Assembly (NCBI RefSeq): GCF_028640845.1
Contig: NC_080541.1
Coordinates: 36,299,935-36,363,934, forward strand
DNA from: Ahaetulla prasina
Taxonomy: Eukaryota; Chordata; Lepidosauria; Squamata; Colubridae
DNA: 64,000 nt
Direction of reading: 5' to 3'
The position numbers and the translations under genes are program-made. The notes below the pieces were generated by a model. The model ran no database searches and was not told the origin of the DNA. It worked only from the letters and a program-made list of their open reading frames with translations. Of this stretch, positions 42,106 through 51,400 are shown in pieces; within the stretch, counting starts at the first letter, position 1, and every line of letters starts with the position of its first letter.

Positions 42106-42784
42106 ACTACTAATAAAAATATTTCACACTAATTTGAAATCACATGTTATACAAAGACAGACTGTGGTTTATTCAGTTTTAATATAGTATAACTATAGCC
42201 ATTTTGGATTGTAAATTTGACTATCTGAATCAGTCATGTTTTATACAACAAATAAACTTATGATCTGTTATATGTATTTTATGAAATTTGCATATATTTA
42301 AAAAGTGGAGGATAGGCAATGCTGTGACGGGAGTCTGAAATTACATAATAAGATTGTTGATGCATCCTTCACATTCCAGAAACTGGGATTGGAATTCAAT
42401 TTGAAAGTTGAGGAACAGATGCAACAAATCATATCAATGCTAAAGTATATTTTCTAATAAACCTTTCATGCGTGAGGCTTATATTGATGGTTACGTACAT
42501 TGCAATTTCCATTCAAGTGTAGGACTTTGCTTCTATGTCCTCTCCATAGCAGTTTCTTTCTCCCAGAGAATTTGAGGTCGCCACTTAGCCTTCTGGAAAG
42601 CTGTAAAGACTTGTCTGTTCATTCAAGCCCTGGGTTAGGCTGGAAGTGATCCCAGCAAATGTCACTGGAATATTGTGGTGCTGTAGTGGGAAGCATGATA
42701 GATTGATAATGTAGATAAATAGTTTTTATGGAATGTTGTGATCCATCAATTATCTATAAGATAGATGGTCATATATTTTTTTGA

Positions 42785-43120
42785 AATAAATAAAATAAAA
42801 ATGTCACTCGGCTTCTGAATTAAAATTATTTTCTGCCTAAAAATTTGTTTTGTTTAAACACTGTTTGCTTTTTCTGACTGAACTCTTGTTCAATGTTATA
42901 TAGCTATATAAATGATTTTTATAATTATGTCGCCTGGGGAATCGTTTCAAACTTCCTATGATTTTTAATTGTGACTGAAATAAGTTCTTTCTTAGCTATG
43001 TACTAAGTACTCAGTTACATGAACTCTAATTTTTGAAACCCACCCAAAGTTGCTTTATTAGTAAGATGGGGGGGCTTAGAAATTTTAAGTAAGTAAATAA
43101 GTAAGTAAATAAATAAGTAA
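42785..43120 (+). repeat. Array block P, copy 1
   Basis: AAATGTCACTCGGCTTC to AAGTAAATAAATAAGTAA. Other P copies: 43512-43815 (shorter), 43816-44143, 46848-47190, plus two 45-bp P heads at 45991 and 47591. Confidence 0.92.
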
Positions 43121-43476
43121 ATAAATAAAATTTCAGAACAAATGTTTCCTTAGGAGTTCTTTTCCATTAAAATTTGAAGACAGATACAATTTTTGGATGT
43201 TTTTCACCTGTCTGGATATCCCACGTGTGAGGATGTTACTCTAAAAAGTATTAGAGAAGCAGTTCCATGTTGCATTTAAATACTTATTAAAGCCACTCAG
43301 TGAGGTTCCTTGCTTTGAAACTGACAATTAAAACACAAACCTGAAATTGCGTTCCTGAATTTGATTGAACCTGGACATTGCTATTACTGTGAAATGGGCA
43401 AACTATTGTTTGTGGAAGAAAAGATCTGTTTCCTTAAACACATTTATGTGTTTGGTTTTTGGGTGGGGAGAGGAGC
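43121..43476 (+). repeat. Array block Q, copy 1
   Basis: ATTTCAGAACAAATGTTTCC to GGGTGGGGAGAGGAGC. Copies at 47186-47545 and 48571-48930. Only the last continues into unique DNA. Confidence 0.92.
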
Positions 43477-48345: not shown

Positions 48346-48489
48346 TATCTATCTATCTATCTATCTATCTATCTATCTATCTATCTATCTATCTATCTAT
48401 CTATCTATCTATCTATCTATCTATCTATCTATCTATCTATCTATCTATCTATCTATCTATCTATCTATCTATCTATCTATCTATCTATC
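48346..48489 (+). repeat. (CTAT)n microsatellite
   Basis: About 35 pure CTAT units in S copy 3; S copies 1 and 2 have only about 2-5 units at the same place. Open frames of YLSI repeats over it are not genes. Confidence 0.97.
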
Positions 48490-51400
48490 ATCTACCAATG
48501 GCTCTTGCCATCTTCTGGAAGGGGAGAGGGAGCTCCTCCCTTATTTACAGTACTTATTTTGACATTATAAATAAAATTTCAGTATGGTTCAGAACAAATG
48601 TTTCCTTAGGAGTTCTTTTCCATTAAAATTTGAAGACAGATACAATTTTTGGATGTTTTTCACCTGTCTGGATATCCCACGTGTGAGGATGTTACTCTAA
48701 AAAGTATTAGAGAAGCAGTTCCATGTTGCATTTAAATACTTATTAAAGCCACTCAGTGAGGTTCCTTGCTTTGAAACTGACAATTAAAACACAAACCTGA
48801 AATTGCGTTCCTGAATTTGATTGAACCTGGACATTGCTATTACTGTGAAATGGGCAAACTATTGTTTGTGGAAGAAAAGATCTGTTTCCTTAAACACATT
48901 TATGTGTTTGGTTTTTTGGGGTGGGGGAGAGGAGCATTCATTTTAAATTGAAAGCCTGCTCTTATCTCAGTAAGCCTACAGTTTCTTTTGTGATGACTCC
49001 AAAAGACTTTTTATCTATTTCACTAGTAACCAGCTAAAAGAATAAATGATAGTTAGGATTTCTGTTCACAACTGATTATATTAAGTGACCATTTCATAGC
49101 ATGGGGGCTACAGTTCTATGAAACCTCTTTAAGTACATTCAAATATTTGGAAATGATTGGATTGATTTGGGATATTTTTTATTTGATAAAAATAAAAATC
49201 TCTTCCACTGGGTCTGTGTCTGGATGAAGAGTTCAAGATGGAGAAGACTATTGATTTTAGATGGGAGCAGAGCTTAAAGATTGGGGAACCTTGGTGTCTT
49301 GAACTCATTGTATGTTAAGTTTAAAGCCATAGTACACATACTTTAAAATGAAATTAATAAAAGTCTAGTGATTGTTGTGATATCCCTAGAAATCCCTATA
49401 ATTTCCTAGGAATTATATAAAATATAGATATTTGTGTCCCATTTAAAATGAAATGTGGAGCTTGTGTCTAAATCACTCTTTTGGCTTTGATCAAAATAGT
49501 ATTTTTTCTGCCATATTTAGCACTAAGCTACAGGAGCAAAATGCTATGGCCTTAATGGATAACCTGTTTGTGTAGCAAAACCAGATTTTTAAAATTGTCT
49601 ATTTTGTCCTTGTAATTTATTCAGTTAAGTCAGAAACTGTCCATATACTAACACAGCACTTAGTTTGACTTTTTTGAAGAACAATTGCCTTGTAGATCTT
49701 TCAAATTAAACCACAACATGTCCATTTCCTAGAAACTTAACTTTCTTTTCAGATTCATGTCATATATGTGTTTTGATATCATGTGCATTATGATTCATAT
49801 CATATATGTGTATTGACAGTCATTTTACTATGATGTGATTCTTCAGGCATTTTTCATATACATAGAGCAGTTGCGTGGCCAGAGATTATTATTTGGGTCT
49901 TTGCCATATGGGGGCCCATTTTTTTTTTAAAAAAGAGAATGTTGCTGGTATTATGCTTTCATTCCACTGAGTGGTTTATTCATAAGTACAGTTAGTATAA
50001 AGTGGAAAAGATACAAATAAATAAAATATTTTTGATCTTCAGAAGAAATAAGCATAACATGTTGAGGGGCAAAAACTGGAAAAATAGGGAACACCAAACA
50101 AACTACAATCAGTCCAGCATAAACTTTGACATATTTCAATCATAAGAGATCAATTCTGTGACTTCATTCTGCATGAATTTTATCCAACACATGAAGTTAG
50201 ACATAAAATCTCATTTATTTTTATTTTGTATCGCAGTGTTCCAGCACTGGAAGTTGAGAACAGCTCCATAAAAATAGCAAAATATGAGTAACCCAGCCAT
50301 TTTAATTTCAGTGACACAGATTTTAATACAACACTGGGAAATAGTTGTAATCAGCTACAATTATAGGATTATAGTGCTAGTGATGTTTATAATGTAATGA
50401 AATGATGGATTGAAAAGCAGGACATCTTAATAATAATGATTGCCTTGCAATAATAAACATTATTTATTAGGTTAAACTGAAATTTCAAACTGATAAGAAA
50501 AAATAATAGTACACAAGTGATACTGATAAAATTTTCCATATTTAAATATGTTCCCAGAGTCTGTGAGTTTCAAATTATGTGCTTTCCTTTCAGATTTAAT
50601 TTTTGTGCTGAATCAAATATATATTGGATTTCTCAGCCATTGTTTTCCAGATGTTGCCAATGCATATCATATCAAGGGCTCATGGATAATAATTAAGGGA
50701 GCAGATATCCAGAACCCTATTAATATTGTGTGCACTCCATGCTAGCATTTATAAGAAAGGGTGGGAGGGAGGGAGAGTGAAAGAAATATGGCAAGCTGCC
50801 CAGAAGCAGTTGTAGAGGTGCACCAAGGTAGAACAGCAGACTGGAATGCCAGGCAGAGGCATCTCATGGAGCAATAATATAGGTTTAATTCATCCTTACA
50901 ATCTGCATTATAATCTCATAATGTGAGGTACCGAAGGGTGATAGCTCTGAGACCAAACACATGGTTTGCATGCAAAAAGCCAGGTCCACTGTTTCGCTAT
51001 CTCTAGGCATGGCTTGCAGATGTAGATTCCTGTCTGGAAGTCGGTAAAAAGCAGTATTGAGTTAGATTGATGAAGGGAATGAATAAGAAAAAAGCACTTT
51101 CCTTTGTTTCAATGAGCAATTTCAATTACCAGAGGCTTCACTTTATAATTTAAGCCATTCATGCTGTTTCTATATCCTGCTCCTGCTCCCACAAACTATT
51201 AGTTTTGAGACTGAAGGAAAATCTAATGAAATTTTATTCAGGAACTCAGTTTTTTCTTTCACAAACTAGCTGGACAAACTCACTTTGCTATAATATTTTC
51301 AGTTAACTGTATAAAATCAATATGAACATGTGGCAATGCAAGTCCTGTTGGTTAGAACAGTGCATAAGTGCGTGAGTGCCCATGCAGGCCAACCTTCTTC

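Follow-up and report, generated by a model that had tools for sequence, protein, structure and literature searches.

A young mosaic tandem array, probably made stepwise from a single-copy 2.15-kb segment of the Ahaetulla prasina genome

Introduction

To our knowledge, most satellites are too old and too homogenised to reveal their beginnings. Taylor & Breden, in 2000, reportedly attributed the birth of minisatellites or VNTRs to slippage at short direct repeats that are not adjacent to one another (cited in PMC4541255).

Several described systems come close to the locus presented here, a mosaic array of blocks that we call P, R, S and Q. Yeast minisatellites are often flanked by 5-10 bp direct repeats (Haber & Louis 1998, as cited in PMC4232551). 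As in such a minisatellite birth, short direct repeats (11 bp here) in a single-copy ancestor bound the duplicated units of the array, but these units measure about 0.3-1.8 kb and six joint types together make a mosaic instead of a regular repeat. The CUP1 arrays of yeast (PMC4232551) arose by unequal non-homologous recombination with a junction homology of at most 3 bp, and they share with our array the derivation of several independent duplication types from one locus and the subsequent alteration of copy number by unequal crossover. The short CUP1 junctions are nevertheless found in different strains, whereas 11-bp matches and all joint types are found here in one array.

Models of FoSTeS and of serial replication slippage have also been described, with 2-5 bp of microhomology at sequenced FoSTeS breakpoints (PMC2583991). 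These models share with the array serial forward and backward jumps with microhomology, slippage reaching up to several kb, but they allow inverted segments, while the array is free of inversion and has longer matches. Another proposed model (PMC8831618) amplifies units bounded by short repeats through unequal sister-chromatid exchange; P-R-S, bounded by ATAAATAAAAT, is such a unit, but that model concerns well-organised gene arrays, whereas our array is irregular and no gene was seen in it. Copy-number breakpoints of flies and humans have been classed as blunt, as showing microhomology or as carrying inserted or deleted bases (PMC4056370), and SINE-derived satellites, which have a different origin, are described for squamates (PMC10702118). 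Among the literature titles, none described this locus or an equivalent mosaic, and one may still exist.

Here, we analyse an array for which the single-copy order, the six joint types and a sufficient path of events are all readable at one locus, which makes it a good test case for short direct repeats seeding tandem duplication.

Results and discussion

Sixteen pieces of four blocks form a 6-kb patchwork

The window (the whole 64-kb stretch of Ahaetulla prasina contig NC_080541.1 that was analysed) contains zero N bases. Self-comparison resolved its positions 42784-48935 into 16 pieces from the four blocks P, R, S and Q, in agreement with the roughly 16 pieces of the initial annotation; all of the pieces are on one strand. 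About 2 kb of apparently non-coding DNA is found as a 6-kb patchwork. Read manually from the self-comparison and the block alignments, the block string is L-P-Q-s-P-P-R-R-S-p-S-P-Q-s-p-S-Q-F, where L and F are the left and right flanks, s is the S end (49-54 bp) and p is the P head (58 bp); with the short pieces split out, it becomes L-pP-Q-s-pP-pP-R-R-Ss-p-Ss-pP-Q-s-p-Ss-Q-F.

From left to right on the plus strand, P copy 1 (42784-43120) adjoins the left flank and Q copy 1 (43121-43471) follows, with the P-to-Q joint in a TAAA tract at 43121-43131. An S-end piece (43472-43520), whose final 11 bp (ATAAATAAAAT) are common to the P start, leads into P copy 2 (43510-43823), which is set apart from the remaining P copies by a single substitution and four shortened homopolymers and terminates at the P-to-P joint; P copy 3 (43814-44150) is then followed by the sole P-R join. 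R copy 1 (44151-44654) terminates at the R-to-R joint, where one G (44655) is unexplained, and R copy 2 (44656-45177), which includes 18 bp of the P-end TAAA tract, precedes the sole R-S join. Next come S copy 1 (45178-45997), a P head (45987-46044) joined to S at CTGCCTAAAAA, S copy 2 (46034-46857), P copy 4 (46847-47181), a TAAA-tract joint together with Q copy 2 (47182-47545), another S-end piece (47544-47597) and another P head joined to S (47587-47644). S copy 3 (47634-48577) carries a long CTAT tract (about 48345-48490) and is followed by the sole S-Q join, and Q copy 3 (48578-48935; hereafter Q3) adjoins the right flank.

Twelve joints are non-ancestral and they belong to six types: s-to-p is found four times, P-to-Q, Q-to-s and p-to-S twice each, and P-to-p and R-to-R once each, so that 4/6 types recur, in 2-4 copies each. 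The joint positions previously listed were all found again: P runs into Q at 43120 and 47190, the Q end meets the S end at 43471 and 47546, the S end meets the P start at 43512, 45991, 46848 and 47591, and the P head meets S at 46036 and 47635. Two joints came in addition to that list, one between a P end and a P start (43815) and one between an R end and an R start (44655). The joins L-P, P-R, R-S, S-Q and Q-F each occur once. Altogether, the array consists of head-to-tail direct copies of one segment, all block copies deriving from a 2.15-kb span.

Two joint types coincide with the longest short direct repeats of the ancestor

We rebuilt a 2.15-kb ancestor from the single-occurrence joins, that is, from the array itself, and, leaving out the CTAT tract, counted the maximal exact direct repeats in it that measure 10 bp or more and lie at least 100 bp apart. 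Six such repeats were found. The two longest, both of 11 bp, correspond exactly to two joint types: S-to-P, with an exact overlap at ATAAATAAAAT in 4/4 copies, and p-to-S, with an exact overlap at CTGCCTAAAAA. The third, AAATAAATAA, fits the P-to-P joint, its exact register inside the TAAA tracts being ambiguous. The fourth, ATATATTTTT, tentatively fits the R-to-R joint, and this only under a two-step formation in which R was joined to the sequence before P and P was then lost; otherwise, one G stays unexplained. The two others are used at no joint. A random breakpoint pair would hit any of these six repeats with a probability of 2.7e-5, and at least two of six joint types would do so with a probability of 1.1e-8, a post hoc value for an ancestor built from the array.

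A clean exact short repeat is thus present at only 2/6 joint types, and none of P-to-Q, P-to-P and R-to-R is a clean join at a single short repeat. The P-to-Q joint lies inside TAAA tracts, and both of its copies alike are without 10 bp (TATGGTTCAG) that Q3 has. The Q-to-s joints, at GAGAGGAGC, exist where they had been placed, but the match is blurred by homopolymer lengths that differ on both sides; these lengths are identical between the two Q-s joints.

The repeated identical joints had been taken to mean that rearranged units were themselves re-amplified. Repetition alone does not prove this, since the ancestor has so few repeats of at least 10 bp that a joint could recur. For the P-Q and Q-S joints, re-amplification is favoured by the common 10-bp lack and by the common homopolymer lengths: judging from these sequence features, the two P-Q joints and the two Q-s joints would each be of common descent, unless Q3 alone changed.

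One ancestral order and a sufficient stepwise path

All permutations of the six inner blocks were tested, and a single order, L-p-P-R-S-s-Q-F, uses each block once with observed joins. The ancestral order P-R-S-Q that had been suggested for this locus is therefore the sole order that visits each block once by observed joins.

We then searched for paths from this order to the present string using a parsimony model of tandem duplications and deletions that allowed only observed joins and no intermediate longer than 40 blocks. Under this model, which forbids exchange between different alleles and transient joins, eight events are enough and seven or fewer are impossible (the search was exhaustive to six events, plus one further duplication or deletion). 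In a stricter model with the same two exclusions, each joint type was created only once, the remainder was left to homologous unequal exchange and intermediates had at most 26 blocks. When the P-P and R-R duplications were left aside, this model needed eight events (four new joints and four exchanges), and the whole array needed ten, of which six made new joints and four were unequal exchanges. The entire string can therefore be reached in steps, by duplication, deletion and unequal exchange, and the replication-template switching that had been invoked is not required.

A single replication catastrophe would explain the same string differently: about 12 template switches in series, by FoSTeS/MMBIR or serial replication slippage, would have produced it at once while re-using a few short repeats. 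Such an event would fit jumps that go both forward and backward, the 11-bp matches at two joint types and the fact that few long repeats are there to be re-used; it would also fit substitutions that are all private or unpolarised, so that no copy is clearly older. When features of FoSTeS/MMBIR were looked for, microhomology was present at the joins, and inverted or distant templated segments were absent, with no inverted repeat pair of at least 30 bp among the repeat families of 42000-49800. We consider a single event distinctly unlikely: the 12 joints are all in direct orientation and within 2.15 kb, a stepwise path exists, and the common 10-bp lack at P-Q and the identical lengths at Q-S favour the copying of ready-made units unless Q3 alone changed. 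A broader proposal, that the few longest direct repeats dictate nearly every rearrangement or that one germline event acted by one-orientation serial template switching, appears rather unlikely to us; if the longest repeats did dictate the outcome, future rearrangements of a single-copy segment would be predictable from its own repeat list.

Our preferred reading, to which we give a probability of roughly 70%, is that the locus is a young mosaic tandem array that arose in steps from the single-copy 2.15-kb P-R-S-Q segment, that is, an incipient satellite or VNTR. Mispaired strands or sister chromatids would have been joined at short direct repeats that the segment already contained, two of them 11 bp long and others within TAAA tracts; backward joins would have produced tandem duplications and forward joins deletions. 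Once kilobase copies were in place, unequal homologous exchange between them could have spread the rearranged units, and the present array would be a satellite or VNTR caught early in its birth, while still irregular. From this patchwork, we infer both the succession of steps and the molecular mechanism, for which replication slippage, microhomology end joining and unequal sister exchange are candidates. Ordinary stepwise processes account for the array best, and its value is that of a clear example rather than of something new in kind; otherwise, it resembles the ordinary neutral turnover of a genome.

No joint lies in the CTAT tract

The rearrangements had also been placed near a CTAT repeat. 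The CTAT tract is part of S and precedes the S-end joint by about 35 bp; zero joints are found within it. Since no joint lies in the tract, we rejected the CTAT repeat as a driver of the rearrangements. As a separate observation, the tract measures about 145 bp in S copy 3 (48345-48490), whereas the first two S copies have just a few units of it.

The copies are nearly identical

Outside the microsatellite tract, the aligned block copies are 97.5-100% identical, far beyond chance. In the aligned cores, 12 substitutions were counted in 5,353 pairwise columns (0.22%) and they correspond to six distinct changes. Each substitution is either private to one copy or unpolarised (between the two R copies), so that the order of events is not given by them. 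P copy 2 (43510-43823), with its four shortened homopolymers and its one substitution, resembles an unpolished long-read consensus, and longer homopolymers are found in Q3 and in the tail of S copy 3. Such homopolymer differences are a typical remnant of unpolished long-read consensus, and those seen here may be consensus errors, which makes dating unsafe. The array is young, and we claim nothing further on its age.

These homopolymers (shortened in P copy 2, longer in Q3 and in the S copy 3 tail) are also what would be expected if a simpler allele or two haplotypes had been mis-assembled into a false mosaic, and other near-identical local duplications in the same assembly point the same way. 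Assemblers seldom join at 11-bp overlaps, which are the overlaps found at the joints here. Considering in addition that 4/6 joint types recur, that two of the types coincide exactly with the longest short repeats, that zero Ns are present and that searches with P and S show no second locus or haplotig in 745 contigs, we hold an assembly artefact to be quite improbable. The array, which is known from one assembly of one individual, is real in that assembly, and its copy number could be an assembly error.

P and S match only the array

In the 1.77-Gb assembly (745 contigs), 3/3 matches of S lie inside the array, as do 6/6 matches of P, which correspond to the four P copies and the two P heads; since the genome search skips very common words, these counts do not prove rarity. 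Searching 24 stretches of 10 kb and the rest of the window with the reconstructed segment gave no match.

These searches bear on whether the blocks are, or carry, mobile elements. Reverse-transcriptase frames, which we take to be CR1/L2-like, and TAAA-type tails are common in the window and would fit a transposon-driven origin. This origin is disfavoured for P and S because neither has a match outside the array; the reconstructed segment is likewise without a match in the 24 stretches and the rest of the window, and no inserted element was seen at the joints. The earlier statement that no transposon explains the array is thus supported for P and S, the blocks that the searches covered, and we regard a transposon-driven array as very improbable indeed.

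A coding function was considered and set aside: the longest open frame in the array has 131 codons and exceeds the 95% point (119 codons; median 77) of the longest frames in 200 single-base shuffles of the ancestor, but it passes through the CTAT tract. No Rfam match at gathering score and no tRNA were found in the window, and no function was seen in the array.

Other local duplications in the window and the assembly

Two other regions of the window contain near-identical copies. At 20517-21411, a clean tandem duplication has a 447-bp unit, 99.3% identity and a 3-bp joint overlap (TAC). At 29575-36314, two copies of a 2,095-bp segment (about 99.5% identical) exactly flank a minus-strand CR1/L2-like element (31670-32831), looking as though its insertion had created a 2.1-kb target duplication; the second copy contains a further CR1-like insertion (34137-35541), with about 19 bp replaced.

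Control tiles of 20 kb were scored for direct local duplications of at least 300 bp and at least 98% identity. Positive tiles were 0/10 in the first set, 0/2 in the flanking set and 2/2 in a later set from other chromosome positions, 2/14 in total, and shorter duplications (five, of 107-192 bp and at least 95% identity) were found in 4/10 of the first tiles. In one tile (G000:C1:200000001-200020000), two clean tandem duplications have units of about 462 and 1,652 bp, identities of 98.5-98.9% and overlaps of 3 and 7 bp, and a repeat with an 88-bp unit is found in the same 20 kb; in tile L030-L031, some of the copies may be transposons. Three young local duplications in the window versus none in the first 12 tiles had raised the idea of a local hotspot, which we dropped because the two later tiles were both positive, 2/14 in all. 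The three simple tandem duplications that were compared (the 447-bp unit of the window and the two clean ones of the C1 tile) have joint overlaps of 3, 3 and 7 bp versus 11 bp in the array, indicating that duplication in this genome can proceed without longer repeats.
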